From Phormidium tenue FACHB-1050 (GTDB taxonomy: Bacteria; Cyanobacteriota; Cyanobacteriia; Pseudanabaenales; Pseudanabaenaceae): 38,267 nucleotides of DNA. The stretch spans positions 1-38,267 of the forward strand of contig NZ_JACJQY010000050.1 of assembly GCF_014696925.1 (NCBI RefSeq). The letters run 5' to 3'. Every line of letters begins with the position of its first letter. Positions within the stretch are counted from its first letter, which is position 1. Position numbers and translations under genes: made by a program. The notes beneath the pieces were generated by a model. The model was given only the letters and a program-made list of their open reading frames with translations. It had not been told where the DNA came from and made no database searches. Positions 5,101 through 32,418 of this stretch are shown one piece after another.

Positions 5101-5816
5101 ATTTGATCCTTAAGCTGTTTAAAAATCACTAAAGACTGTTGATAGAATTCAATCGCCTGTGGATATTTCTGTAACGAATAATAAGTAAGTCCTAGATTTG
5201 ATAAGGCATTGGCTTCATTTTGCCGATCGCCTAATTCTCTAGAAACGGTAACGACCCGTTCATATAAGGAAATATTTTCTTGGTATTTGCCTAGAGCTTG
5301 ATAAATCCCAATTAATCCCCCAAGAGTAGTTCTCTCATTATTGCGATCGCCAATTTGCTGCCGAATAGTTAGGGCTTGCTTGTAAAAGTCAATCGCCTTG
5401 TCGTACTGTCTTAAGGCGGCATAGGCAAGCCCCAGATTGTTATAGGAATTACTTTGTCCTTGACGGTCGTTAATTTGCGTTCTGATTGCTAGAGACTGCT
5501 CGTGAAAGGCGATCGCTTGTTGGTACTGTCCGAGATAGTTATGGGCTAGTCCGATGTTACCAAGGAGCCGCGCTTCATCTATGGGGCTTTTGAGAACTCG
5601 AAATAACTCTAGGGACTTTTGCCAAGTGGCGATTGCTTCAGGATATTTCTTTTGGAGATATAGCTGGGTTCCCTGTTCTAGTAACTGTGTGGCTTGGGCT
5701 TTGCGGTCGATGGTGGCTTGGGCAAAGCTGCGATCGCTAAGAGCGATCTGCACAGGAAGGCAAGCTAAAAAAGTGATTAAGGCGATTTGTCCTGCCGAAC
5801 CCAGATGTTTATCCAT
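2154..5816 (-). CDS. Exported TPR-CHAT (caspase-like) protein, 1220 aa, with internal duplication
   Basis: Residues 1-38 form a hydrophobic leader ending near SFAQA, predicting export to or beyond the inner membrane. About 17 TPR units of 40 residues follow (consensus GQYQKAIDFYQQSLAI, then a Gly-Asp-Arg turn), up to about residue 770, then the helical linker ALQIIDLLKIQELEDYF. The C-terminal CHAT domain keeps both caspase-clan residues: His1087 in HLATHAEF and Cys1129 in SACQTG. It ends in HPNYWSAFFAIGNGL, as the paralogues do. CHAT proteins are peptidases or peptidase-like effectors of clan CD; the substrate here is unknown. Residues about 858-967 are a perfect 55-residue tandem duplication. 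The ATG at 5816 is preferred over an upstream TTG at 5849 because it matches the paralogues. The next paralogue upstream ends only 74 bp away, so co-transcription is possible. Confidence 0.9.
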   Translation of the reverse strand: MDKHLGSAGQIALITFLACLPVQIALSDRSFAQATIDRKAQATQLLEQGTQLYLQKKYPEAIATWQKSLELFRVLKSPIDEARLLGNIGLAHNYLGQYQQAIAFHEQSLAIRTQINDRQGQSNSYNNLGLAYAALRQYDKAIDFYKQALTIRQQIGDRNNERTTLGGLIGIYQALGKYQENISLYERVVTVSRELGDRQNEANALSNLGLTYYSLQKYPQAIEFYQQSLVIFKQLKDQIGESTTIINLAVAYKNLGQYQSAITALQEGLAIAKQIGNLYNQSSALNNLGNTYVNLGQYPKAIEFLQQDLIIKKQLGDRNGESSTLNNMGNAYYFLGQYQKSIGLFEQALAIAKQYKNMLAEGNALGNLGLAYGSLGQYQKSLEFHQQAVEISKRIGDFQGVSNSLSNIGLVYSNLGQYQKSIEFHQQALVIAKRIGDRRSESGTLGNLGNAYSSLGDYAKAIDFHEKSLAIAKEIGDRNGEGTLLGNLGGNYYYLGQYQKAINFYQQSLTVLKQIGDRNGEANMLGNLGLVYSNLGQYQKALDFFQPALTIFQTIGDRSGEGNTLNNLGIAYRSLKQYQKATESYQQALIIARQIGNRNGEGNALNNLGLIYNDIGKHQESINFFVKALEIAQQISNRKDEGNALSYLGVAYGALKKPQESLDFYQKALAVSRKIGNREGEREILNNLGALLAYQAQPEAAIVFYKQSINVTESIRKDIKSLGKEEQKTYLNTVAQTYRRLADLLLQQGRVMEALQIIDLLKIQELEDYFKNVKGNERTAEGIRILAPEQAVSSQLLAMNFDKIPELNRQLAQQIQQLPKSEINKVPEYLQKLPQGVVLIYPLSLSDRLELILFSANNLPISRTSKISQAKLEELIIDFKTGLLDAGSEDVLEPATELYNLLIKPIEKELIQNLPISRTSKISQAKLEELIIDFKTGLLDAGSEDVLEPATELYNLLIKPIEKELIQAKAQTILYAPDGQLRYVPLAALYDGKQWLVEKYRLSNLISYSLSDFVAKPQTSPSILAGAFGGKGDERKFGQSGLPATLKEVQAIANSFQNSTTLTEEQFSRQAIESRLKNYNILHLATHAEFNIGTPENSFIIFGNGDKIGLNEITDWQIPNVELIVLSACQTGTGKLDNGIEILGFGYQVQKAGAKQAIASLWKVDDAGTQALMAAFYQELQKGDVTVTEALRRAQVSLIKSSNFNHPNYWSAFFAIGNGL
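2916..3245. repeat. Perfect 165-bp tandem duplication inside a CHAT gene
   Basis: Bases 2916-3080 and 3081-3245 are identical by eye over the full 165 bp. The unit is 55 codons, so the frame is kept. Each copy encodes NLPISRTSKISQ through LLIKPIEKELIQ, the segment just before the TILYAPDGQLRYVP strand of the CHAT region. The three other intact paralogues have this segment once. The perfect identity means either a very recent event or an assembly error. Confidence 0.95.
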
Positions 5817-5890
5817 AGCCGCCACTTTGTCCTGAATTACAAAACTCAATCCAGCTTAACAACAGATGTCCTAAACCGTATCCGTCAAAT

Positions 5891-8800
5891 CTACAATCCA
5901 TTGCCGATCGCAAAGAATGCTGACCAGTAGAAGGGATGATTGTAATTCTTTGATTTGATCAGTGACATCTGAGCGCGTCGCAATGCTTCGGTGACAGTGA
6001 CATCACCTTTGCGTAGTTCTGCATAAAAAGCTGACATCAGCACACCTGTTTCATCATCTTTTACTGACCAGAGAGAAGCGATCGCTTGTTTTGCGCCAGC
6101 CTTTTGGACTTGATAGCCAAATCCTAAGATTTCTACACCACTGCCGAGTTTGCCTACTCCTGTCTGACAGGCACTCAAGATAATCAAATCGATGTTCGGA
6201 ATCTGCCAGTCGGTGATTTCATTGAGGCGGATTTTGTCGCCATTGCCGAAGATGATGAAGGAGTTGTCTGGCGCACCAGTGTTAAATTCGGCATGGGTGG
6301 CAAGATGGAGAATATTATGGTTTTTAAATTTGGACTCAATGGCTTTACGACTAAATTGTTCTTCGATGAGGGTGACTGAGTTTTGGAAAGAGTTGGCGAT
6401 CGCTTGAACTTCTTTAACGGTTGCGGGTAAGGCTGTTTGTCCAAATTTTTTCTCTCCAGCTTTACCGCCAAAGGCTCCTGCGAGGATGTTGGGTGGATTT
6501 TGGGGTTGGGGTGTAAAGTCGGAGAGGGTGTAGGCAATGAGGTTGCTAATCTGGTATTTCTCAACTAACAATTGTTTGCCATCGTAGAGTGCGGCGATGG
6601 GAATGTAGCGTAGTTGTCCATCGGGTGCATAGAGAATTGTTTTGGTGTTGAATTGAACGAGTTCGGCTTCGATGGGTTTAATCAGGAGGTTATAGAGTTG
6701 AAGTGATGGCTCTCTGAAGTCTTCGGAACTAGGATCAAGGAGTCCTGTCCTAAAATCAACAATTAAGGTTTCTAGTTGAGCTTGGGAGATTTTGGTGGTG
6801 CGGCGGATGGGGAGGTTGTTGGGGGAGAAGAGGATGATTTCGAGGCGATCGCCTAAAATAAATGGATAGAGTAGTACTGTTCCCATTGGGATTTGATTGA
6901 GATAGTCAGGAACTTTGTTGATTTCGGTTTTGGGAAGTTGCTGGATTTGATTTGCAAGTTGTCGATTAAGTTCTGGAGCATTATCAAAGCTAACCGCTAG
7001 CAGCTTATCGCTAAGAGCTAACTCTGGTGCTAATAGTCTGACTCCCTGTGCGGATCTGTCGCTGCCTTTGATATTTTTGAGGTAGTCTTCGAGTTCTTGG
7101 ACTTTGAGGAGGTCGAGGACTTGCAGGGCTTCGATGATGCGGTTTTGTTGAAGGAGGGTGTCGGCGAGGTCGCGGTAGGTCTTTTCGACTGTGGCTAAAT
7201 AGGATTGTTGGAGGTCTTTGTCGAGTTTTTTGATATCTTTGCGGATTGCTTCGCGGACGTTGATCGATTGCTTGTAAAAGAGAATTGCTAGTTCTATCTG
7301 GTTCAGAGCTTTGAAGGCAACACCTAGATTATTGAGAGACAATCCTTCACGCTCACGATCGCCTATTTTCTTAAAAATTTCTAAGGATTGCTGATAAAAA
7401 TTAATTGCTTTTTGAGTTTGTCCAATCATATTATAGGCAATACCGAGATTAGAGAGCAAAGATGCCTGACCATTGAGATCGCCGATTTGTTTGAAGATTT
7501 CTAATGACTGCTGGTAAAAGTCAATTGCCTTCTGGGATTGTCCAAAGCTGTCATGAACAATCCCAAGATTACCGAGTAAAGCTCCTTCACCCTCACGGTT
7601 ACCGATTTGCTTTGTGATTGTTAGAGACTGCTGATAAAAATCAATTGCTTTTTGATATTTTCCAATTTTCCTGTAAGCTTCTCCGAGATTACCTAGAGAA
7701 GTTGATTCACCCTTGCGGTTACCAATTTGCCTTGTGATTGCTAATGACTGCTGATGGAAGTCAATTGCTTTTTGGTATTGTCCAAGGTTTTCATAGGCAA
7801 GTCCGAGATTATTTAGAGAACTTGATTCACCCTCGCGGTCACCGATTTGCCTTTTAATAGCTAATGACTGCTGACTGAAGTCAATTGCTTTTTGGTATTG
7901 TCCAAGTCTATAGTAAGTACTAGCTAGATTACTTAAAGAATTCCCTTCCCCTCTAAGATTGCCAATTTGCCTGTCGATTCCAAGAGACTGCTGATAGAAA
8001 TCAATTGCTTTTTGGTATTGTCCGAGTCTATCATAGGCATTGCCTAGATTATTTAGAGAATTTGATTCACCTTTGCGATCGCCAATCTGCCTTTTGATTT
8101 CTAATGATTGCTGACTGAAGTCAATTGCTTTTTGATATTGTCCAAGATTACTGTAGGCATTGCCTAGATTATTTAGAGAATTTGATACACCATTCTGATC
8201 GCCAATTTGCCTTGAAATTGCTAGGGACTGCTGATGGGATTCAATTGCTCTTTGATATTGCCCAAGACTGTTATAGGCATTGCCTAGATTATTAAGCGAA
8301 GATGCTTCACCTTTGCGATCACTAATTTGCATAAAGACTTCTAATGACCGATCATAGAATTCAATTGCCTTTTGATATTGTCCAAGATTACTGTAGGCAC
8401 TGCCTAGATTATTGATTGCAATTGCTTCACCTTTGCGATCCCCTGATTCTTTATCGATCACTAGTGACTGCTGATAAAAATCAATTGCCTTTTGATATTG
8501 TCCAAGATTACTGTAGGCACTGCCTAGATTTCCGAGCGCATTTCCCTCACCCTGTCGATCTTTGATTTCCCTTGCGATCGCTAAACTTTGCAACTGAAAC
8601 TCAATTGCTTTGTCATATTTGCCGAGAGAATTATAAGCATTTGCCAGATTTCCGAGTGACTGTCCCTCTCCCCGTCGATCTTTGATTTCCCTAGAAACTG
8701 ATAAGCTTTGCAACTGAAACTCAATTGCTTTGTCATATTTGCCGAGAGAATAGTAAGCAATTCCCAGATTTCCCAGCACATTTCCCTCAGCAAGGCGATT

Positions 8801-9304
8801 TTTGATTTCTCTTGAGATTTTTAGACTTTGTAGATAATATTCAATCGCCTTTTCGTATTGCCCAAGCGAATCATAAGCAAGTCCAAGACCGTTAAAAGCA
8901 TCAACCTTACATTCAGAGTATCTAATTTCTTGACAGATAGCTAAAGCCTTCAAATCAAGTTGAATTGAATTGTTATAGTCATTAGCCCTTCTCCTTTCAC
9001 TTCCCTGCTGTAATAGTCGATCTGCTTCAGCTTTGCGAGATTGAATTATTTGCGAGGTATCAGGAATTACTAAAGATGGAATTCTAATAGGAATATCTCC
9101 GTTCGATGGAGATATAGGGATATCTCCATCATCAGACATATCGATGGGAATATCACCATCATCTGGTACTTTCTGAGCTATCTCCGCATTACCCTCTCGT
9201 CTTACTTGCGCTTGCACTACCTCAGCCCCACCAACAAGGCAAAGAGCAAAAGGCAAAAGGTAAAAGTGAGCGAGTTTCGATGATTTCTTGCGATGGGGCA
9301 TCAT
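5891..9304 (-). CDS. Exported TPR-CHAT (caspase-like) protein, 1137 aa
   Basis: The protein has a leader (MMPHRKKSSKLAHFYLLPF to about VVQAQ), then an unusual acidic linker with three GDIPI motifs (residues about 49-74) not found in the neighbours. About 15 TPR units follow, many nearly identical (LGQYQKAIDFYQQSL). The CHAT domain has His1004 (HLATHAEF) and Cys1046 (SACQTG). In the SLWSVKDDET stretch it differs from the SLWKVDDAGT of the paralogues, but the catalytic pair is intact. The ATG pair at 9304/9301 is preferred; the frame remains open upstream only through a low-complexity AAAGGCAAAAGG repeat and begins there with a TTG. It lies 74 bp upstream of the 5816 gene on the same strand. 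Target and trigger are unknown. Confidence 0.88.
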   Translation of the reverse strand: MMPHRKKSSKLAHFYLLPFALCLVGGAEVVQAQVRREGNAEIAQKVPDDGDIPIDMSDDGDIPISPSNGDIPIRIPSLVIPDTSQIIQSRKAEADRLLQQGSERRRANDYNNSIQLDLKALAICQEIRYSECKVDAFNGLGLAYDSLGQYEKAIEYYLQSLKISREIKNRLAEGNVLGNLGIAYYSLGKYDKAIEFQLQSLSVSREIKDRRGEGQSLGNLANAYNSLGKYDKAIEFQLQSLAIAREIKDRQGEGNALGNLGSAYSNLGQYQKAIDFYQQSLVIDKESGDRKGEAIAINNLGSAYSNLGQYQKAIEFYDRSLEVFMQISDRKGEASSLNNLGNAYNSLGQYQRAIESHQQSLAISRQIGDQNGVSNSLNNLGNAYSNLGQYQKAIDFSQQSLEIKRQIGDRKGESNSLNNLGNAYDRLGQYQKAIDFYQQSLGIDRQIGNLRGEGNSLSNLASTYYRLGQYQKAIDFSQQSLAIKRQIGDREGESSSLNNLGLAYENLGQYQKAIDFHQQSLAITRQIGNRKGESTSLGNLGEAYRKIGKYQKAIDFYQQSLTITKQIGNREGEGALLGNLGIVHDSFGQSQKAIDFYQQSLEIFKQIGDLNGQASLLSNLGIAYNMIGQTQKAINFYQQSLEIFKKIGDREREGLSLNNLGVAFKALNQIELAILFYKQSINVREAIRKDIKKLDKDLQQSYLATVEKTYRDLADTLLQQNRIIEALQVLDLLKVQELEDYLKNIKGSDRSAQGVRLLAPELALSDKLLAVSFDNAPELNRQLANQIQQLPKTEINKVPDYLNQIPMGTVLLYPFILGDRLEIILFSPNNLPIRRTTKISQAQLETLIVDFRTGLLDPSSEDFREPSLQLYNLLIKPIEAELVQFNTKTILYAPDGQLRYIPIAALYDGKQLLVEKYQISNLIAYTLSDFTPQPQNPPNILAGAFGGKAGEKKFGQTALPATVKEVQAIANSFQNSVTLIEEQFSRKAIESKFKNHNILHLATHAEFNTGAPDNSFIIFGNGDKIRLNEITDWQIPNIDLIILSACQTGVGKLGSGVEILGFGYQVQKAGAKQAIASLWSVKDDETGVLMSAFYAELRKGDVTVTEALRRAQMSLIKSKNYNHPFYWSAFFAIGNGL

Positions 9305-9481
9305 AATTTGACAAGGAAAAAGTAGAAAGGCAAAAGGCAAAAGTGGGGGATTTTTGGGGCTTTTGGGCGCGATTACATCCCAAATTCTACGATCCGCACA
9401 GCCAATATATCACTAAATTTTCTTGTAACCCCATCTCCCCGATTCTTTTAAGCATTCATCAGAAACAAACAAAGTCCCGTA

Positions 9482-9547
9482 GGGGCGAAGCATTACCGCC
9501 ACCATTTAGGCATTTCACCACAACATCCAAACGGTAATGCTTCGCCC
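9482..9547. repeat. Imperfect palindrome between TPR-CHAT paralogues (copy 2)
   Basis: The arms GGGGCGAAGCATTACCG (9482-9498) and CGGTAATGCTTCGCCC (9532-9547) pair, and the DNA after them matches the copy at 1999-2064 up to GGGTTTAGCATTTGC (9590-9604). That last 15-mer returns in inverted orientation at 9643-9657, forming a second potential hairpin. The stretch 9305-9593 has no gene that I can support. Confidence 0.75.
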
Positions 9548-9593
9548 AAACCTCACAACGCAGAGACAAGCGATCGGCGAGAGCAAAGAGGGT

Positions 9594-9896
9594 TTAGCAT
9601 TTGCAGATCGAGATTTTTTGTGAGGAGTTTGAATATTGTGGCGCAAATGCTAAACCCCTTGTTTTCTTGAGATCACCTAACGTAAACATCGCCTCAACCT
9701 CCTCTCGAATCACTTGGGGAAACTTATACAGCAAAACTGTCTCAATAAATTCTATCATCCTCTCGCGATCGCCTTGCCCCACCCGTTCAGCTAACTGATG
9801 GGCTAAGGCTATGCTTTCCTTCTTGGGCGCAACGATCAACTTTACAAGTCCCAAACTCAATGACTCAGACTCTGGCAATTCATCCAGATAGTTTAG
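9594..9896 (-). pseudogene. C-terminal fragment of a DUF2887/Rpn-type PD-(D/E)XK nuclease-like protein
   Basis: The frame reads LNYLDELPESESLSLGLVKL, then IVAPKKESIALAHQL and ETVLLYKFPQVIREEVEAMF, resembling the C-terminal half of the DUF2887/Rpn-type (recombination-promoting nuclease-like) proteins common in cyanobacteria. A stop immediately precedes it at 9899-9897, no ATG start is present, and the PD-(D/E)XK catalytic half is absent. The 3' end runs into an intergenic palindrome that supplies the stop. It sits between the shared 3'-flank repeat and the end of the next CHAT gene; the equivalent place near 2135 lacks it. I judge it a decayed remnant. Confidence 0.65.
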
Positions 9897-9941
9897 TCAA
9901 GGAAACAGTTTTTATGTCGTGATGATGGCAGTAAATACTGT

Positions 9942-12479
9942 CTAAAATCCATTGCCGATCGCAAAAAATGCTGACCAGTAATTAGGATGATCATAGGCTT
10001 GAGAACGAATGAGTGATATTTGCGCTCGGCGTAAAGCTTCGGCAATAGTGACATCACCTTTTTGTAACTCTTTATAAAACGCTGCCATCAAAGTCTGTGT
10101 ACCAGCATCATCAACCTTCCAGAGCGAGGCGATCGCTTGTTTTGCACCTGCTTTCTGGACTTGATAGCCAAAACCCAAAATCTCTACTCCATCTCCAAGC
10201 TTCCCAACTCCTGTCTGACAGGCACTTAGGACAATTAGATCTACATTCGGGATTTTCCAATCGTTGATTTCATTGAGACGGATTTTGTCGCCATTGCCAA
10301 AAATAATGAAGGAATTCTCTGGGCTACCGATATTAAACTCCGCATGGGTGGCAAGGTGGATAATATTGTGATTTTTGAATTTTGATTCGATAGCTTGGCG
10401 GCTAAAGTTTTCTTCAGTTAAAGTAACTGAGTTTTGGAAAGAATTAGCGATCGCTTGAACTTCCTTAATGGTTGCAGGTAAAGCAGTTTGTCCAAATTTT
10501 TGCTCTCCTGCTTTACCACCAAAGGCTCCTGCGAGAATGCTAGGCTGTGCTTTAGATTGTTGCCCAAAGTCAGAGAGAATATAGGCAATCAGATTACTGA
10601 CTCGATATTTTTCGATTAGCCACTGCTTGCCATCGTATAGCGCCGCTAAAGGAACATATCGCAATTTTCCATCGGTTGCGTAGAGAATTGTTTCCGCTTT
10701 GGCTTGTGCAAGTTCAGTTTCGACAGGTTTAATCAACAAATTGTATAGTTCTCTCGCAGATTCTTGGACATCTTCAGAGCCAGCATCAAGGAGTCCACTT
10801 CTATATTCAGCAATTAATTTTTCTAGTTTTTCTTGAGAGATTTCAACAGTACGATTAACGGGAATATTGTTGTTAGAGAAGAGGATTAACTCTAAGCGAT
10901 CGCGTAAAATTAGAGGATAAAGTAAGACCTTGCCTTGGGGGATTTGTTTTAGATAATCAGGAACTCGATTGATCTCTGATTTGGGAAGCTGTTGGATTTT
11001 GCTAGCAAGTTGGCTGTTAATTTCATGACTATTCTCAAAGCTAACCGCTAATAGCTTATCGCTAGTAGATTTCTCTGGCTCTAACATCCTCACGCCTTGG
11101 GCAGTTCGGTCATTACCCTTAATGTTTTTGAGATAGTCTTCTAGTTCTTGGACTTTGAGTAAATCTAGAACTTGGAGAGCTTCAATAACACGCCCTTGAT
11201 TGAGCAGGAGATCTGCGAGATGGCGATAGCGATCGGCGACTGTTTGTAAATAGGATTGACGATCTTCTTTACCTAGACTCCGAATATCTTTACGGATGGA
11301 TTCTGTAATCCCAATGGAAGACTTATAGAAGGCGATCGCTAAGCTAGTCTGATTGAGATTAACTAGGGTAGCCGCAATCGCAGCATTGGCATTTGCTTCA
11401 CCTTTGCGTTCACCTATTTGGCGGACAACTACAAGGTGCTGCCGATATAAATCTAGAGCCTTTTCATATTGTTTGAGCGCATAGTAAGCATTACCCAGAT
11501 TCCCTAATGTTGCACCTTCCGCTTGACGATCTTTAATAGTTTGGACAATCTCTAAGGTCTGCTGCAAATAATCAATGGCTTTTTGATGTTGCCCGATCGC
11601 ATTAAATGCATTGCCCAGATTACCTAAAGCCGTTGCTTCTCCATTGCGATCGCCGATTTGCTGATAGATTACTAGAGCCTGTTGATAAACCTCAATCGCT
11701 TGCTGGTATTTGCTTAAATAGGCATAGGCATTACCGAGATTTTCCAGAGCCTTGCCTTCTCCACGGCGATCGCCGATCGCTCTGACCAGAGTTAAGCTTT
11801 GCTGGAGCCAGTCTACAGCTTTTTGGTACTGACCTAAATAGGCGTAGGTGTTACCAATATTGCCCAGTGCATAGGCTTCTCCTTGACGATCGCGGATATC
11901 TTTGGTCGCTGCTAGGTATTGTTGATAGAAGTCTAAAGCTTTTTGATATTGCCCCAGAGCCACGTAGTCATTACCTAATAGCCCAAGAATCAGACTTTCA
12001 CCTTGGCGATCGGCTAGGTTACGAGCAAGGGCTAGTCCCCTTTGATGCTGGTCAATAGCCTTTTGATATTGTCCTAAAGCAAAATAAGCAGCTCCTAAAT
12101 TGTTGAGAAGTTTCACTTCTAAATTAGGAATTCCCAATTGCTTAGCAATTTCCAGACTTTTGCTGAAAGTATTAATGGCGTTATCGTATTGACCAAAAAT
12201 TAAGTAGACATTACCAATCAAAAGTTGAGTATTAGCTTGACTGGGATAGTCACCGATTTCTTGGTAAATCTGTAATGCTTGTTCGGCAAATTGCAAGGCT
12301 TCATGGAACTGACTCAATTGAGCTTGTTGCAGCCCTTGATTGAACAGACGATCTGCTTCAAATTTGCGAGATTGCATGGGCTGGGCTTGGGTAAGTATAG
12401 GTGTGAAAGTTAGATCAGTAGCTAATCCCACAAACCCAGTTAAAGCAAAAATTGCGATCGCATATAACCGTGAAGCCAT
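9942..12479 (-). CDS. Exported TPR-CHAT (caspase-like) protein, 845 aa
   Basis: The protein has a leader (MASRLYAIAIFALTGFVGLA to about TQAQ), about nine TPR units, the linker ALQVLDLLKVQELEDYLKN and a CHAT domain with His712 (HLATHAEF) and Cys754 (SACQTG). It ends HPNYWSAFFAIGNGF. The ATG at 12479 is chosen: AAAGGTGA lies 4-5 bases upstream, whereas the longer frame opens with a TTG inside a hairpin repeat. Its last 70 bases and 3' flank closely match those of the 2154-5816 gene, showing recent duplication or conversion. It has the fewest TPR units of the four intact copies, so repeat number differs almost two-fold within the array. Confidence 0.9.
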   Translation of the reverse strand: MASRLYAIAIFALTGFVGLATDLTFTPILTQAQPMQSRKFEADRLFNQGLQQAQLSQFHEALQFAEQALQIYQEIGDYPSQANTQLLIGNVYLIFGQYDNAINTFSKSLEIAKQLGIPNLEVKLLNNLGAAYFALGQYQKAIDQHQRGLALARNLADRQGESLILGLLGNDYVALGQYQKALDFYQQYLAATKDIRDRQGEAYALGNIGNTYAYLGQYQKAVDWLQQSLTLVRAIGDRRGEGKALENLGNAYAYLSKYQQAIEVYQQALVIYQQIGDRNGEATALGNLGNAFNAIGQHQKAIDYLQQTLEIVQTIKDRQAEGATLGNLGNAYYALKQYEKALDLYRQHLVVVRQIGERKGEANANAAIAATLVNLNQTSLAIAFYKSSIGITESIRKDIRSLGKEDRQSYLQTVADRYRHLADLLLNQGRVIEALQVLDLLKVQELEDYLKNIKGNDRTAQGVRMLEPEKSTSDKLLAVSFENSHEINSQLASKIQQLPKSEINRVPDYLKQIPQGKVLLYPLILRDRLELILFSNNNIPVNRTVEISQEKLEKLIAEYRSGLLDAGSEDVQESARELYNLLIKPVETELAQAKAETILYATDGKLRYVPLAALYDGKQWLIEKYRVSNLIAYILSDFGQQSKAQPSILAGAFGGKAGEQKFGQTALPATIKEVQAIANSFQNSVTLTEENFSRQAIESKFKNHNIIHLATHAEFNIGSPENSFIIFGNGDKIRLNEINDWKIPNVDLIVLSACQTGVGKLGDGVEILGFGYQVQKAGAKQAIASLWKVDDAGTQTLMAAFYKELQKGDVTIAEALRRAQISLIRSQAYDHPNYWSAFFAIGNGF

Positions 12480-12522
12480 AACATCACCTTTGAAGTTACT
12501 AAATAATTGTATAGCGAAATCC

Positions 12523-12600
12523 AAACCCCAGAAGTGAATAGTGCAGCTCTACGCCGCCATTCACTTCTGGGGTTTATGTCCAGACTGGCGACAGCCATAC
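12523..12600. repeat. Hairpin repeat between two CHAT genes, with a family-A end
   Basis: AAACCCCAGAAGTGAAT (12523-12539) pairs with ATTCACTTCTGGGGTTT (12559-12575). The loop is longer and less symmetrical than in the other hairpins. After the right arm comes ATGTCCAGACTGGCGACAG, the same type of end as the family-A elements at 19673, 28009 and 32303. The left end is missing or diverged, so this is a partial copy. It may also end transcription, although no T-run follows the stem. Confidence 0.7.
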
Positions 12601-12604
12601 ATTT

Positions 12605-15268
12605 TTAGGAACCACTCCCAAGCACAAAAAAGGCTGACCAATAATTGGGATGGTTGTATTGTGGTGATTTGATCAGTGATACTTGCGCTCGGCGTAAAGC
12701 CTCAGCAATAGACACATCATCCTTTTGTATTTCTCTATAAAAGGCTTCCATTAAGACTTGTGTACCAACATCATCGACTTTCCAGAGGGAGGCGATCGCT
12801 GATTTTGCACCAGCCTTTTTAACTTGATAGCCAAAACCTAAAATCTCCACCCCATCGCCCAGTTTGCCCACTCCTGTCTGACAAGCACTGAGGATGATTA
12901 GCTCAACATTTGGGAGTTGCCAATCACTAATTTCATTTAGTCTAATTTTGTCACCGTTACCAAAAACGATAAATGAGGTTTCAGGCGCACCAACATTAAA
13001 CTCAGCATGGGTTGCCAAGTGGATAATATTATGATTTTCAAGTAGAGCCTCCACAGCTTGGCGGCTAAACTTTTCCTCTTGAAGTGTAACTGAGTCCTGA
13101 AAGGAACTAGCGATCGTTTGGACTTCTTTAATCGTGGCAGGCAATCCTGACTGCCCAAATCTTCTCTCACCGCCTTTGCCCCCAAATGCACCAGCGAGAA
13201 CACTGAATTCAGCCTTTGATTTAGGAGTAAAGTCACTCAGACTATAGGCGATGAGATAGCTGATGCGATATTTTTCAATTAACCAATGTTTACCATCGTT
13301 AGCCTCTGGATCGTATAAAGCCGAAAGGGGAACATAGCGCAACATCCCGTCAGGAGCATAGAGAATTGTATCCGCTTTCGCTTGCTTCAGTTCTGATTCG
13401 ATTGGTTTAATCAAGATGTTATAAAGCTTTGATGCAGGCTCCTTAAAGTCTTCAGAACTAAGATCTAGCAATTCTACTTTGAACTCTTCAATTAAAGTCT
13501 TTAGCTCATCTTGTGTGATATTTACAGTACGACTAATTGGTAGATTTCCCTGAGAAAAAAGCACCAATTCTAGACGATTTTCCAGAATGAGTGGATAAAA
13601 TAGGACTGTGCCTTGGGGGATTTTCTGGAGATAGTCAGGCACTTTATTAAGTTCTGATTTAGGGATTTGTTGAATCTGATTAGCTAATTTGCTGTTTAAC
13701 TCAGACATCTGCTCAAAATTAATCACTGAGAAATTCTTCATAAAAGCTTTCTCGACTTCTAAAAGCCTTACTCCCTGAGATGTGCGATCAGTTCCCTTGA
13801 TGTTTTTGAGATAGTCTTCTAGCTCTTGAACTTTTAACAAATCAATAACTTGCAATGCTTCCATAACCCGTCCTTGGGTTAGCAAGAGGTCAGCCAGACG
13901 GCGATAGGATTTCTCAATAGTCGATAGATATGATTTCTGAGATTCTTTGCTGAGTCCACTAATATTTTTGCGAATAGATTCTCGAACATTAATCGATCGC
14001 TTATAAAAAAGAATCGCTAGTTCGGGTTGATTTTGTTGGGAGAAGAAAATACCAAGATTATTTAATAAACGTCCCTCCCCAGCCCGATTACTAATTTGGA
14101 TAGCAACAGCCAAAGATTGCTGGTAATAATCAATTGCTTTTTGAAATTGTCCGAGTGAATTGTAGGCGATCGCTAAACTGTTGAGTGAACCGCTTTCTCC
14201 ATCACGATCACCTATTTGTTTGGCAATTTCTAGAGCTTGTTGGTAATTGACGATCGCTGTTTGAGTATCTCCCAGAGAACGATAAGCTCCACCAAGATTA
14301 TTGAGGGCGCGTCCTTCTGTATTACGATAGCCGATTTGCCGAGCAATCACTAAGGCTTGTTGAAAATATCCGATCGCTTTGGGATATTGTTTAAGGGTAT
14401 TGTACACATTGCCAAGGTTATTGAGAGCGTCGGCTTCGCCACTCCGAGCGCCTACTTGCTTTTTGAGATCTAATGATTGCTGATAATAATCAATTGCCTT
14501 TTGATTCTCGCCAAGAACGCTATAGGCTGCACCAAGAGTATTCAAGGCATCAGCTTCACCATTGCGATCGCCGATTTCCTTTTTGATGGCTAAAGATTTC
14601 TGATATTGCTCAATGGCAGTTTGATACTTACCAAGTCCATCATAGGCAATACCAAGGGCAATATACAAATCTGATTCTCCGTCGCGATCGTCGATTTCTC
14701 TCAAAATCGGCAAACACTTCTGATAGTATTCAACGGCTTTGTTATACTGTCCAAGCAGATTGTAGGCATTGCCAAGATTGCCTAGCGAACGTCCTTCACC
14801 GTAGCGATCGCCGATTTGTTGTTTAAGAGCCAAAGCCTGTTCATGGTACTCAATAGCCTTAGTGTACTGTCCGATCGCATAGTAGACATTGCCTAAATTC
14901 CCTAAGGAATTTCCTTGATTATCGCGATCGCCAAGTTTTTTAGCAACAGCTAGCGACTGCTGATGATATTCAATTGATTTTGGATAATTTCCCAGTGAGT
15001 TATATGTATTGCCAATATTGTTGAGTGCATTCCCTTCACCTTTAAGATTTTTGATTTCACGATAAATCTGTAGCGATTTCTCAAATACTCGCAATGCTTC
15101 TCGAAATTGGCTAACTCGATTTAACTGGTTTCCTCTTTCTAAAAGCCGATCTGCTTCAGCTTGGCGATCTACTGCTGTTTGAGCTTGAATGCTTTCACTG
15201 ATCACAATCTGCAATGGCAAGCAAGATAAAAAAGTTAACATTGCCACCCCAATCGCCATATTCTTCAT
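12605..15268 (-). CDS. Exported TPR-CHAT (caspase-like) protein, 887 aa
   Basis: This is the first gene of the array in the direction of transcription. It has a leader (MKNMAIGVAMLTFLSCLPLQ to about IQAQ), about ten TPR units, the ALQVIDLLKVQELEDYLKN linker and a CHAT domain with His754 (HLATHAEF) and Cys796 (SACQTG). It ends NYWSAFFVLGSGS, the most diverged tail of the four, and has a short extra loop (DPEANDGKHW) before the LIEKYR motif. The ATG at 15268 follows GAGG by 8 bases and matches the start chosen for the paralogues; an in-frame ATG 21 bases upstream has no better site. The promoter for the array would have to lie in 15269-15370, which is free of hairpins. The role is unknown; CHAT proteins act as proteases in some bacterial immune and cell-death systems. 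Confidence 0.9.
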   Translation of the reverse strand: MKNMAIGVAMLTFLSCLPLQIVISESIQAQTAVDRQAEADRLLERGNQLNRVSQFREALRVFEKSLQIYREIKNLKGEGNALNNIGNTYNSLGNYPKSIEYHQQSLAVAKKLGDRDNQGNSLGNLGNVYYAIGQYTKAIEYHEQALALKQQIGDRYGEGRSLGNLGNAYNLLGQYNKAVEYYQKCLPILREIDDRDGESDLYIALGIAYDGLGKYQTAIEQYQKSLAIKKEIGDRNGEADALNTLGAAYSVLGENQKAIDYYQQSLDLKKQVGARSGEADALNNLGNVYNTLKQYPKAIGYFQQALVIARQIGYRNTEGRALNNLGGAYRSLGDTQTAIVNYQQALEIAKQIGDRDGESGSLNSLAIAYNSLGQFQKAIDYYQQSLAVAIQISNRAGEGRLLNNLGIFFSQQNQPELAILFYKRSINVRESIRKNISGLSKESQKSYLSTIEKSYRRLADLLLTQGRVMEALQVIDLLKVQELEDYLKNIKGTDRTSQGVRLLEVEKAFMKNFSVINFEQMSELNSKLANQIQQIPKSELNKVPDYLQKIPQGTVLFYPLILENRLELVLFSQGNLPISRTVNITQDELKTLIEEFKVELLDLSSEDFKEPASKLYNILIKPIESELKQAKADTILYAPDGMLRYVPLSALYDPEANDGKHWLIEKYRISYLIAYSLSDFTPKSKAEFSVLAGAFGGKGGERRFGQSGLPATIKEVQTIASSFQDSVTLQEEKFSRQAVEALLENHNIIHLATHAEFNVGAPETSFIVFGNGDKIRLNEISDWQLPNVELIILSACQTGVGKLGDGVEILGFGYQVKKAGAKSAIASLWKVDDVGTQVLMEAFYREIQKDDVSIAEALRRAQVSLIKSPQYNHPNYWSAFFVLGSGS

Positions 15269-15379
15269 AGCCGAAACCTCGTATTTCATCTAGCTATTTA
15301 GCATAAATGTAGTCAGGGCAAAAATAGGGTTGGTTACAAATTTAATAACAGAAAGGGATGTTTCATCGCAAAAAAGATT

Positions 15380-15559: not shown

Positions 15560-15739
15560 TTAATTAACTGATGTTACGTGGAAGGAATTCCTGCGACCCT
15601 CAAGGTTGGGGGCTGGCACGGGGGCGCAGCCCCTACTAGTTCTAAATTGTACAGGTAGGGGCAATGCCCCCGTGCTTGCCCTGTCACGCTAGCAGTAGGA
15701 AATTCATCATCTGCGTTCCACGTAACGTCAGTTAATTAA
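15560..15739. mobile_element. Family-T element, about 180 bp (copy A)
   Basis: The ends TTAATTAACTGATGTTACGT (from 15560) and the same sequence with ACGT in place of ATGT on the minus strand (from 15739) are near-perfect inverted repeats, continuing GGAA. The interior holds an arm pair around GGCACGGGGGCGCAGCCCC and GGGGCAATGCCCCCGTGC. Homologous interiors occur in copy C (28001-28281). It has no coding capacity. Confidence 0.85.
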
Positions 15740-19672: not shown

Positions 19673-19780
19673 TATAGCTACCTGTATTAGGACAAATCAA
19701 AATCCAAATAGTGTGAGGCGGCGCTTCGCGCCGCCTCACACTATTTGGGGTTCATGTCTTAACAAGAATGGCGACAGCTA
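19673..19780. mobile_element. Family-A hairpin element in the cpcL-ccaR intergenic region
   Basis: The left end is TATAGCTACCTGTATTAGGA and the right end, read on the minus strand, is TAGCTGTCGCCATTCTTGTT. Between them is a 45-nt hairpin (19704-19748) with 21-nt perfect arms around TTC. The element lies between the linker promoter and ccaR. The whole gap 19405-20001 otherwise shows only the G-box and the next hairpin. Confidence 0.85.
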
Positions 19781-25739: not shown

Positions 25740-27629
25740 ATGAGTAATGACAAAGATAGTTTTAAGGACAAATTTGCTTTCAAAGTGGAAGGCTTTGAAT
25801 CTTTAGTGGATGATGTTAAGCAATTACTGAATCTTGATCAACTCATCGATCTTGCCCAAAAACTGGATGAGAAGCAGAAATCTGGCGAAATTCATACTGA
25901 GGTAAATGTTACTTCCCGTCCATTATCCAGCATTCCCCGTCGCGGTAATATTCCCCGATCGCCTCGTGCTGCTACAGCAACAGGTGGAAGCAGCGAAGTC
26001 ACTTCCCCTGATGTGGTCAAACCTGAAAAAGATAATTCTCCAACCGAAAAACCACAGGCGATCGCGGAACTAGTGGGCGGATTGGGCGATACCCTAGCGC
26101 AGTTGCGTGATTTAGTCGAAATTCCCCTAAAGCGTCCTGATATTTTGGCTAAATTAGGGCTAGAACCACCTAAAGGCGTTCTGCTCGTTGGTCCTCCAGG
26201 CACTGGCAAAACTCTAACGGCGCGATCGCTTGCAACTCTGTTGGGCGTAAATTACATTGCGATCGTGGGGCCAGAAATCATTAGTAAATACTATGGTGAA
26301 GCCGAAACTCGGTTACGACAGGTATTTGAGAAAGCGGCGAAATCTTCACCCTGTTTGATTTTTATCGACGAAATTGATGCTCTCGTTCCTAATAGGGCAA
26401 ATGTAGAAGGAGAAGTGGAAAAGCGTCTAGTAGCACAATTGCTAGGCTTAATGGATGGATTTGCCGAGACTAAGGGCGTAATCGTGTTAGCCGCTACCAA
26501 TCGCCCCGATGCGATCGATCCTGCCCTCCGTCGTCCAGGAAGATTCGATCGCGAGATTATTTTCCCCATACCCGATCGCCATGCGCGGCGTGAAATTCTA
26601 GAAATCCATACGCGATCAATGCCTTTGACTGGTGATGTGGATTTAGATGATATTGCCGATCGCGCCTATGGTTATGTGGGAGCAGATATTAAGGGACTTT
26701 GCCAAGTAGCGGCGACTAATGCTTTGCGGCGACAAGTAACCAGTGTGGCGGATATTCCTGAAAACCTTGATGTGAATCGTGCAGATTTTGAATTTGCTTT
26801 AAAGCAGGTTCACCCAGCCGTGTTGCGATCGCTGCAAATTCAAGTTCCTACTGTGCAATGGTCTGAAATCGGTGGACTAGCGAAAGTTAAGCAAACTCTT
26901 CAGGAAGCAGTAGCAGGCGCATTAGTTGATCCCGCACTCTATGCCCATACCCGCGCTAAGGCAACCCGTGGAGTCCTCCTCTATGGACCGCCAGGGACTG
27001 GCAAGACTTTACTCGCTAAAGCGATCGCCACTCAAGCCCAAGCAAATTTTATTGCCGTTGCGGGTTCGGAATTGCTAACTAAATGGGTTGGAGCTTCCGA
27101 ACAATCAATTAGACAGTTATTTGCTCAAGCGCGGCAGGCGGCTCCCTGCGTGATATTTATTGATGAGATCGATACCCTTGCACCTGCGAGAGGTAGCTAT
27201 CAAGGCGACAGTGGTGTAAGCGATCGCGTGATTGGTCAGTTACTAACGGAACTCGATGGTCTGCAATCTGCTGAAGGACTATTGGTGATTGGGGCAACCA
27301 ATCGCCGTGATTTTATCGATCCTGCGCTATTGCGATCGGGGCGCATCGAATTACATATGATGGTAGATTTACCCGATCACGATAGCCGTAGTTCGATTTT
27401 AGAAGTACATAATCGCGATCGCCCCCTTGACGATCATCTCAATTTAGATGTTTGGGCTGACCGTACCGAGAATTGGAATGGAGCCGATCTTGCTTTTCTA
27501 AGTAATCGCGCCGCCATTTTTGCGATCCGTCGTCATCAGCGTGATGCTTCTAATCTGCTTGAAAATCTCAAGATTACCAGTGAAGATTTTGAGCAAGCTT
27601 TTGCCGAACTTCTCGAACAACGAAACTAA
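25740..27629 (+). CDS. CDC48/VAT-like ATPase with two AAA domains
   Basis: The protein has 629 aa. The first AAA domain has Walker A GPPGTGKT (151-158), Walker B LIFIDEID and the arginine-finger segment RRPGRFD. The second has Walker A GPPGTGKT (416-423), Walker B VIFIDEID and RSGRIE. Both look catalytically complete. Residues 1-105 lack the double-psi barrel substrate domain of true CDC48 and are instead a short acidic segment followed by a Ser/Pro-rich linker. Such twin-AAA proteins form hexamers that unfold or extract proteins; the substrate here is unknown. The ATG at 25740 follows AGGAACT by about 7 bases. The stop overlaps the convergent neighbour by four bases. Confidence 0.88.
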   Translation: MSNDKDSFKDKFAFKVEGFESLVDDVKQLLNLDQLIDLAQKLDEKQKSGEIHTEVNVTSRPLSSIPRRGNIPRSPRAATATGGSSEVTSPDVVKPEKDNSPTEKPQAIAELVGGLGDTLAQLRDLVEIPLKRPDILAKLGLEPPKGVLLVGPPGTGKTLTARSLATLLGVNYIAIVGPEIISKYYGEAETRLRQVFEKAAKSSPCLIFIDEIDALVPNRANVEGEVEKRLVAQLLGLMDGFAETKGVIVLAATNRPDAIDPALRRPGRFDREIIFPIPDRHARREILEIHTRSMPLTGDVDLDDIADRAYGYVGADIKGLCQVAATNALRRQVTSVADIPENLDVNRADFEFALKQVHPAVLRSLQIQVPTVQWSEIGGLAKVKQTLQEAVAGALVDPALYAHTRAKATRGVLLYGPPGTGKTLLAKAIATQAQANFIAVAGSELLTKWVGASEQSIRQLFAQARQAAPCVIFIDEIDTLAPARGSYQGDSGVSDRVIGQLLTELDGLQSAEGLLVIGATNRRDFIDPALLRSGRIELHMMVDLPDHDSRSSILEVHNRDRPLDDHLNLDVWADRTENWNGADLAFLSNRAAIFAIRRHQRDASNLLENLKITSEDFEQAFAELLEQRN

Positions 27630-27916
27630 TATTCAAAAGTCCAAATCGCCCACCCTTTGGAAATAACCGTAATTACATAAGCTGAGGAAAGTCGGCTAGT
27701 GATTTTTTGGACTTCAGCCCAGTCAAAACTAGTGCGAAATAGACTATAGGTAAAGCCGTTATAAGCGATCGCCGCTACGGGTTTATCCAAATCTTCAACT
27801 TTAATATGGTGATAGCGAATTTCCGCAGGCACAATTACAAAGTTTGTTGTTTTCCCTCCCAACCGAAATAGCTCATCTTCATCTAAAGTATCGTTTTCAT
27901 TTTTGTAGTCGTTCAT
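27626..27916 (-). CDS. Small conserved-looking protein of unknown function, 96 aa
   Basis: I do not recognise a named domain. The protein is soluble with an acidic N-terminus (MNDYKNENDTLDEDELFRLG), then KTTNFVIVPAEIRYHHIKVE and mixed strand/helix sequence (AAIAYNGFTYSLFR, AYVITVISKGWAIWTFEY) with many aromatics. No signal peptide or membrane helix. ATG start. The last codons overlap the stop of the convergent ATPase gene (shared 27626-27629), leaving no room for a terminator between them. The composition is that of a real gene rather than a shadow frame. Confidence 0.65.
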   Translation of the reverse strand: MNDYKNENDTLDEDELFRLGGKTTNFVIVPAEIRYHHIKVEDLDKPVAAIAYNGFTYSLFRTSFDWAEVQKITSRLSSAYVITVISKGWAIWTFEY

Positions 27917-28000
27917 AAAAGCATCTAGCGGCTTAAAAATATTCTCTTACTTTAACTTACTGTACTTTGTACTGAGATATAGCTGTCACCACCAGTATTA

Positions 28001-28281
28001 ACTCATGTTATAGCTACCGTCGATTGTGCTAGTACAAAATCAAAACCCAAGAAGAGAATGGCGGCGCTTCGCGCCGCCATTCTCTTCTTGGGTTTTATGT
28101 CCTCATACACTTGGCGACAGCTATACATAGAACTCTGATGATGAATCTCTTGCTGCTAGCAAAGCAGGGCAACCACGGGGGGATTGCCCCTACTCCAATA
28201 ATTTAGATTTTGTAGGGGCTACGCCCCCGTGCCAGCCCTTGATTTCTATTATCGCAGGCATTCCTTCCATATAATATCAGT
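28001..28281. mobile_element. Family-T element (copy C) interrupted by a family-A element
   Basis: Read on the minus strand from 28281 it starts ACTGATATTATATGGAAGGA and continues with the GGCACGGGGG and TAGCCCCTAC interior of copy A. The other end is split: ACTCATGTTA (28001-28010), then the family-A insert, then CATAGAACTCTGATGATGAA (from 28126). Taking out the insert and one TA gives a 37-bp stretch matching the copy A end at 30 positions. A solo family-A-like end lies just before at 27978. The gap 27917-28334 has no gene. Confidence 0.8.
28009..28125. mobile_element. Family-A hairpin element with TA target duplication
   Basis: TA at 28009-28010 and 28124-28125 flank a 113-bp element with ends TAGCTACCGTCG and TAGCTGTCGCCA (minus strand). 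The centre is a perfect 55-nt hairpin (28042-28096), outer stem AAAACCCAAG, middle AAGAGAAT, core GGCGGCGC around TTC. The TA duplication is shown by comparison with intact family-T ends. Confidence 0.88.
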
Positions 28282-28284
28282 ATT

Positions 28285-28333
28285 ACCCCAAAAGCGTGAG
28301 GTGTTGCCCTGCTCTGCCTCATGCTTTTGGGGT
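28285..28333. repeat. Hairpin at the 3' end of the membrane-protein gene
   Basis: ACCCCAAAAGCGTGAGG (28285-28301) pairs with CCTCATGCTTTTGGGGT (28317-28333) with one G-T. The minus-strand stop codon at 28335-28337 is two bases away, so this is a plausible terminator for that gene, although no U-tract follows. Confidence 0.65.
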
Positions 28334-28334
28334 T

Positions 28335-29174
28335 TTATGGAAGATCTGAAGTGAATTCTTGTAATTCTGTCATCGCTTTCTGGACATCGATCGCAATTTG
28401 CAAAGTCGTATCAAAAATACGTCCATATTCCTTAGCTCGATTATTGATCTGGATCGCTTCAAAAGCATTTAAATCAATATCAAAGCGATCAGGATGAAAA
28501 TCGGGATGCTCCCGTAAAATTCGTTCAGTTTTGAGGGCGCGGACAATGTCATTGCGAGTCATTCTTAAGGCTGCGATCGCGGATTCCCTAGACTCTAATT
28601 TGATTGGATTGCCTGCATCTTGTAATTGATCAAATACATCAATGTCACGGATCGTCTTATTGCATTTGTCAACTTCCGTAAATAGGCGCAAAATAACTTT
28701 GGGAATCCCTTTTTGGCGATGTAAATTTTTTGACATTCGCCATTGCTGCATAATTAATCTTGTGAGCAATAAAGCAATAATTCCGCTAACGATCGCCAAG
28801 CCAAGGTATAGCAAAATCATCCCTAATGGCGCTCCTATCAGAACATAAAGCGAATAAATAGCTGCACCTAAAGCCACACAAAAGAAAAGTACAGTTACTT
28901 CCACAAATTCGATCGCTAAACTCAATGCCCCCAATAGCAAACTAATCAAAAATATCATTCCCGCAATTCGTAGCGGCGGCAAAAAGATACTAGCAAAGGA
29001 GATAAAGTTAATCGCGGTAACCCCTAAGGCGATCGCGCGTTGGATTTTGATCTGTCGTGAAGTCAACTGTAGTGATGGCAAAATCTGTTGGCGATCGAAA
29101 CCTGTCAATTCCAATAGCTCTGCTTCCGAAATCAATAACCTTTCTAAATCGGTTCTCATACTTGTCGCCGCCAT
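28335..29174 (-). CDS. Membrane protein of unknown function with four central helices
   Basis: About 279 aa. An N-terminal cytoplasmic helix (MRTDLERLLISEAELLELTG) is followed by about four membrane segments (residues about 45-140: AIALGVTAINFISFASIFL, IAGMIFLISLLLGALSLAI, VTVLFFCVALGAAIYSLYVL, GMILLYLGLAIVSGIIALLL) and a long charged helical C-terminal part (about 150-279). No recognised domain. The ATG at 29174 (or 29159) is chosen; a longer frame opens with a GTG at 29276 that lies in a repeat shared with ccaR and passes through another hairpin, so the extra 34 residues are unlikely. Same strand as the DUF3386 gene upstream, with hairpins between. Confidence 0.65.
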   Translation of the reverse strand: MAATSMRTDLERLLISEAELLELTGFDRQQILPSLQLTSRQIKIQRAIALGVTAINFISFASIFLPPLRIAGMIFLISLLLGALSLAIEFVEVTVLFFCVALGAAIYSLYVLIGAPLGMILLYLGLAIVSGIIALLLTRLIMQQWRMSKNLHRQKGIPKVILRLFTEVDKCNKTIRDIDVFDQLQDAGNPIKLESRESAIAALRMTRNDIVRALKTERILREHPDFHPDRFDIDLNAFEAIQINNRAKEYGRIFDTTLQIAIDVQKAMTELQEFTSDLP

Positions 29175-29224
29175 CAATTTTGTGAAGACTGGCAAGGGAC
29201 TTAAGCCCCTTGTTCTTTGTTGTG

Positions 29225-29290
29225 AATAACTTTGCCTTGCAAAGTTATTACAGCAATTTCCGATCAAACAAACCACAAGAGATTGTGGTT
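29225..29290. repeat. Two hairpins and a 29-bp sequence shared with the ccaR 3' end
   Basis: AATAACTTTGC / GCAAAGTTATT (29225-29249) and AACCACAA / TTGTGGTT (29271-29290) are hairpins downstream of the DUF3386 gene; on the minus strand the second is followed by TGTTTGAT and may be its terminator. ACAGCAATTTCCGATCAAAC and the next 9 bases (29250-29278) match 20675-20703 with one mismatch. Confidence 0.75.
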
Positions 29291-32302: not shown

Positions 32303-32418
32303 TGTAGCTGTCGCCATTCTTGTTAGGACATAAAACCGAAATAGTGTGAGGCGGCGCGAAGCGCCGCCTCACACTATTTCGGTTTTGATTTGTCCTGATA
32401 CAGGTGGCGATAGCTATA
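32303..32418. mobile_element. Family-A hairpin element, abutting the family-B element
   Basis: The ends TAGCTGTCGCCATTCTTG (32305) and TAGCTATCGCCACCTGTA (minus strand, from 32416). The perfect 55-nt hairpin at 32332-32386 shares its middle stem AATAGTGTGA with the hairpin at 19704-19748 but has GAA rather than TTC in the loop. Confidence 0.85.

Follow-up and report, generated by a model that had tools for sequence, protein, structure and literature searches.

A probable MITE nested at a TA within an older MITE of a Pseudanabaena genome, and mirrored changes in hairpins

IS630/Tc1-mariner elements have inverted ends and use a TA target that is duplicated upon insertion, and IS200/IS605 elements are not known to have either terminal inverted repeats or a TA on both sides. 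According to a review of prokaryotic MITEs (PMC10969869), such elements are short, carry terminal inverted repeats, are bordered by a target duplication and occur in many copies; the reference list of the review includes an entry on Nezha, a MITE of cyanobacteria. The two elements described here, A and T, have the same four features. In contrast to the MITEs as presented in that review, A has a long palindromic core whose sequence differs from copy to copy, and no autonomous partner of A or T was found in the loci examined. Among the papers listed in literature searches, none on Pseudanabaena MITEs was seen.

Template switching has been described previously for yeast and rRNA genes (PMC8794818, PMC8604942). 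The rRNA survey gives the combination of a stem change with a loop inversion as extremely rare (six cases) and describes rRNA loops as constrained, so that stem co-changes and loop inversions are hard to count there (PMC8794818). Paired stem changes and loop inversion, which occurs on perfect arms as well, are common to the published template-switch hairpins and to those analyzed here. The two papers, as far as the material considered here goes, treat rRNA/microRNA and yeast coding sequence, whereas the present hairpins belong to cyanobacterial MITEs and intergenic regions (PMC8794818, PMC8604942).

The nested site and its empty counterparts in congeners

The window, as the whole analyzed stretch of 38,267 nucleotides is called here, contains a T copy that is interrupted by A (Table 1). 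Element A, with a length of 113 bp, sits inside the terminal repeat of T, and the interrupted T measures 164 bp (28002-28280 minus A). The junctions read ...TATTAA/CTCATGT-TA-(TAGCTACCG...GGCGACAGCTA)-TA-CATAGAACTCTGATG..., where the slash marks the left border of T. The flanks of this T copy form an imperfect 6-bp repeat, which was read by eye.

According to the preliminary description, excision of 28011-28125 rejoins the end of T and restores 30 of 37 matches to an intact copy, and gapless alignment bears this out. From position 27997 on, the joined end was aligned without gaps to the intact T (15568-15731), read as its reverse complement; 40 of 49 positions match, and 30 of these matches fall within the first 37 positions. 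The 15 bases to the left of the junction lift the alignment score from 37 to 53 (+16), and the score of 53 was reached by one of 2000 shuffles of these bases. The nesting of A in T is real, although as an event the nesting of MITEs is nothing unusual. The nested site fixes the ends of A. Formally, the same sequence would result from a 113-bp element that duplicated the TA and from 115 bp inserted with no duplication.

Table 1. Features of the nested site, its flanks and the intact T copy in the window
Feature	Positions	Strand	Basis or remarks
Intact T copy, 164 bp	15568..15731	+	Bordered left and right by TTAATTAA (15560-15567, 15732-15739)
Left flanking ORF, 96 aa	27626..27916	-	No Pfam match; orthology anchor
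Target repeat of T, left copy TATTAA (imperfect, 6 bp)	27996..28001		By eye
Family T, short left piece of terminal repeat	28002..28010	-	Alignment and orthologues
TA target, left copy	28009..28010		Sequence and orthologous sites
Family A element, MITE-like, 113 bp	28011..28123	+	Imperfect terminal inverted repeats TAGCTRCCGTCG... / TAGCTGTCGCCA...; absent from the orthologous sites of G010 and G005
Perfect 26+3+26 palindrome (hairpin) of A	28042..28096		Loop TTC at 28068-28070
TA target, right copy (duplication)	28124..28125		Sequence and orthologous sites
Family T, remaining piece	28126..28280	-	Matches to other T copies
Target repeat of T, right copy TATTAC	28281..28286		By eye
Right flanking ORF, 313 aa	28335..29276	-	No Pfam match; gene of the tree and anchor for orthology

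Elsewhere in the window, four large minus-strand ORFs with 120-base repeats stand in a row (2154-15289). According to Pfam, the ORF at 12605-15289 (minus strand) contains TPR and CHAT.

Orthologous loci were searched with the query 27626-29276 in 26 genomes of the genus, including the own genome (G000), and matches were detected in all 26. The preliminary description had called for strains with the empty site, and such sites were found in two congeners, G010 (L119) and G005 (L121). Both share the left flank and the T tip, lack A and have a single TA. The matches to the left part (query to 385) and to the T part (query from 499) abut there and overlap by two bases, the TA. The site of G005, AACTCATGTTACATAGAACTCTGATGATGAATC, is exactly the empty site predicted by removal of A and one TA from the window, and that of G010, AACTCATGTTACATGGAACTCTGATGATGAATC, differs from it in one base. 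The empty site is visible at the left T tip only; neither G005 nor G010 keeps T whole. The T copy of G010 (L119/L120, contigs C23 and C236) is interrupted by another element with the ends CCCACATTCCGCTC and TTCTAT on both sides and is spread across two contigs. In G005 (L121/L122, C1 at 2.457 and 2.376 Mb), the right tip of T is split by an IS-like end, CCTACATTCAGCAGG, and the rest of the T tip together with the right gene lies at a distance of about 81 kb in inverted orientation.

Both flanking genes are present within one locus in 11 further congeners (L123-L131, L135, L136), and the T query gave no match in the loci of the more distant congeners (L123-L136). The FastTree phylogeny of the right-hand gene, constructed for 19 genomes, grouped G005 with the pair of G000 and G010 with a support of 1.0, the pair itself having a support of 0.974. 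T is common to all three members of this clade, and no basal congener with A at this TA was seen among the orthologous loci examined. The two empty sites and the gene tree thus place T first and A later, as the preliminary description had proposed. T entered this intergenic region in the ancestor that G000, G005 and G010 share, and A was inserted later, in the G000 lineage only, after the G010 split; a single T insertion on the stem of the clade and a single A insertion on the branch of G000 account for the observed states.

Cut-and-paste elements can also excise, and the sequence alone does not forbid that A was ancestral and was lost precisely from G005 and G010, leaving one TA in each. Such a history is very improbable, since the tree demands two separate precise excisions for it versus one insertion, and since G005 has exactly the predicted site. 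Read as an insertion in the G000 lineage, the nested site is polarised and indicates that A was still mobile after the G000/G010 split.

Copies of T and repeated hits on the same place

In the own genome, 40 of 78 T candidates were scored, and 30 of the 78 loci were fetched for a survey of T. Its copies are approximately 164 bp long with the tips CTGATGTTACGTGGA, and 19 of the 30 loci have two uninterrupted tips. The script for flanking repeats, in which the ends could slide by one base, so that longer repeats may count letters of the element, and which took a wrong left tip in L039, found exact repeats of 6-8 bp in 13 of these 19 copies, of 9 bp in two and of 4 bp in one, and none in three. 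These repeats are AT-rich and mostly 6-8 bp in length. The MITE features of T are thus inverted ends, a target duplication and multiple copies. The T tip CTGATGTTACGTGGAA was also found in congeners on several short elements with other cores (L167-L196), many of which have 136-151 bp between the tips.

Among the 11 loci without two uninterrupted tips, one is the window copy (L052), and another (L059) has an element of a different A subfamily at the same place in the opposite orientation. Of the remaining nine, L038 was the one locus where the script search detected an A-like tip, which immediately adjoins the intact left T tip. At this locus (G000:C16:23492), an A-like core follows the truncated right T tip; as judged from its sequence, L038 is possibly a case of converse nesting, with T in an A-type element.

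These copies bear on whether A could simply belong to the interior of some T elements, which would then form a longer T subfamily. In favor of such a subfamily, an A-type element occupies the same place in the T copy of L059/L377 and in its G005 orthologue L375. However, this element belongs to another subfamily and has the opposite orientation, both tips are uninterrupted in 19 of 30 T copies, copies of A occur at many places outside T, and for the window copy the orthologous empty sites refute the proposal, so that a longer T is hardly credible. Other T copies with the same A at the same place, which the preliminary description had named as the finding that would speak against nesting, were not seen among the 30 T loci. 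The intact T copies and the different A subfamily in L059 therefore show that T does not normally contain A.

A search for a T tip passing directly into an A tip, with at most one mismatch, gave nine rows in five of the 26 genomes, and four of the nine rows do not continue into T. T was found on both sides of A in the window copy and in the orthologous pair G000:C40 / G005:C2, which has one extra base, A, at the right junction. This pair (L059/L377, G000:C40:28947; L375, G005:C2:204270) represents a second, older nested A-type insertion, present in two species. At least two insertions, of opposite orientation, have occurred at the same place in the T tip, one preceding and one following the G000/G005 split. 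In L378 (G024:C272:3621), to which two of the nine rows belong, an A-like element lies between the T-tip-like sequences ACTGATGTTA and TAACATCAAT; to judge by its arrangement, it is possibly a composite element.

Family A and its possible route of movement

The 26+3+26 palindrome of A lies between ends that form imperfect inverted repeats, TAGCTRCCGTCGATTGTGTTAGGACA and TAGCTGTCGCCAAGTGTATGAGGACA. From 99 raw hits, overlapping rows and copies that agreed in flanks and ends were removed, which merged some orthologues (such as L023 with L300) and left 73 distinct A or A-like copies of full length; the count covers copies that are complete and at least 30 bases from the locus end. The preliminary description regarded the nested site as proof of TA-specific insertion. 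A single site does not prove such specificity, but it is supported by the flanks of the copies: 66 of the 73 have TA on both sides and the other seven have TA on one side, at a TA dinucleotide frequency in the window of 0.064.

In the own genome, 40 of 637 first-look A candidates were scored, and all were located at distinct places. Matches of the size of A were also found in several of the 25 congeners. In GTDB species genomes, the A pattern was detected in at least 65 stretches; among the matches listed, 62 belonged to Pseudanabaena and three to other cyanobacterial MAGs. Six plasmid records, all of Pseudanabaena, contained A, whereas no match was found in 50,697 phage records, nor in IMG/VR searched with one exact pattern.

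A is short (below approximately 500 bp), has no room for a transposase gene, carries terminal inverted repeats, and is multi-copy and dispersed, with a constant target duplication and known empty sites (G005, G010). With these features, A is very probably a non-autonomous MITE-type DNA transposon, inserted at a TA within the terminal inverted repeat of the older, unrelated MITE T. An A-like element at 32305-32418 of the window (L264) adjoins the end of a B-type MITE (ends TATAGCAATG..). It is absent from the G010 orthologue, and there are two extra bases at the left junction.

As for the enzyme, A entered a TA dinucleotide within the older T, with TA on both sides afterwards, and its movement may be due to a trans-acting DDE transposase with TA specificity, of the IS630/Tc1-mariner type. 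We infer this enzyme class from the TA target and the inverted repeats; the TA target, its duplication and the inverted ends are common to A and IS630/Tc1-mariner elements. By contrast, none of the eight PF13358 loci of the own genome has an A tip within two substitutions, six of these loci lying at contig ends, where the outer end is invisible. Since no enzyme with A or T ends was found in the loci examined and six of the eight loci are cut in this way, A was not assigned to IS630.

PF01609 gave 317 matches in seven genomes, and no pair of A or T tips was seen at 49 loci covering part of these matches (30 returned loci and 19 chosen stretches), which showed at most single tip-like matches. 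In addition, 382 loci (1.41 Mb, overlaps included) were scanned for tips 500-3000 bp apart around an ORF of at least 120 aa, and tip pairs were listed at 11 of them. The longest ORFs at ten of the 11 (all but L141) were analyzed in Pfam at 1e-5: nine belonged to non-transposase families and one had no match. Tip patterns without the MITE core gave more short elements, among which no transposase was recognized. Two loci were considered as sources of a T partner and rejected: L233 carries a T-like tip, yet other inverted ends, TAATTAACGTGAGTTCGGGATAAG, enclose its transposase, and at L236 an IS whose ends are different adjoins a T-like tip.

The lack of a DDE partner in the loci examined would also fit a movement of A without a DDE transposase, by a single-strand IS200/IS605-like or a REP/RAYT-like route, and A has a long perfect hairpin of the sort often present in such elements. 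A route of this kind is nevertheless unlikely, as inverted repeats form the extreme ends of A and a TA lies on either side of it, two features that IS200/IS605 elements are not known to have.

Mirrored changes in hairpin arms and inverted loops

A comparison of 41 A copies with the consensus revealed nine mirrored cells (seven distinct changes) and ten one-sided ones. The number of mirrored cells expected under independence is 0.06; column shuffles, which leave shared descent between the copies in place, gave a mean of 0.36 and a maximum of 3 in 2000. A first count of paralogues (43 copies, 15 mirrored cells) included six mirrored cells in two copies of a sister subfamily (L156, L372); omission of these two copies gives the 41. 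In fixed orientation, the loops of A are TTC (21 copies), GAA (17), AAA (two) and TTT (one).

Orthologous hairpins were matched by their 80-base flanks, and pairs from different genomes with both flanks at 88% or more were accepted; hairpins with more than two mismatches never entered, which favors paired states. The 14 pairs so obtained, two further pairs with unlike loops being left out, contain four mirrored positions (0.11 expected), 11 one-sided and one other. Their loops are the same in seven cases (one of them the self-complementary CATG), inverted in six and otherwise different in one. A looser count of 20 pairs, from which three pairs with unlike loop length were left out, gave 15 mirrored (0.47 expected), 18 one-sided and two other positions, with 11 loops the same, seven inverted and two other. 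The weak pairs in this count are L279/L352 (matched via MITE ends), L167/L190 (one genome) and L007/L253 (indel).

Mirrored changes exceed the chance expectation both among the A copies and between orthologous loci. A mirrored change was found in L023/L300, and L030/L291 and L144/L147 combine a mirrored change with an inverted loop. In L020/L284, the loop has changed from AAA to TTT with the arms unchanged, and the window hairpin at 19694-19752 has an inverted loop relative to L247. An inverted loop with a mirrored change was also seen by eye in L375/L377.

In template switching, a change in one arm would be copied into the other and the loop would be inverted in place, and orthologous hairpins would stay nearly perfect while their sequence drifts. 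The palindromic cores of the MITEs and many other intergenic hairpins of Pseudanabaena may thus have been reshaped by inter-strand template switching during replication. We hold this at slightly better than even confidence, lowered a little because the orthologous pairs contain more one-sided than mirrored changes and because part of the first mirrored count reflects shared subfamily history. The loop inversions favor DNA template switching over selection for RNA pairing alone. Gene conversion from other copies may also lie behind the changes in the MITE hairpins. Here, a stem change together with a loop inversion was found in two of the 14 orthologous pairs and an inverted loop in six of the 14; for the former combination, the rRNA survey gives six cases (PMC8794818).

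If template switching is indeed the cause, nested and orthologous MITE copies would serve as a natural bacterial assay of the process. Many near-identical palindromes have known orthologues, and co-changes of the stem and inversions of the loop can be counted in them. Further orthologous hairpins in the set with mirrored changes or flipped loops are L029/L286 and L091/L264.
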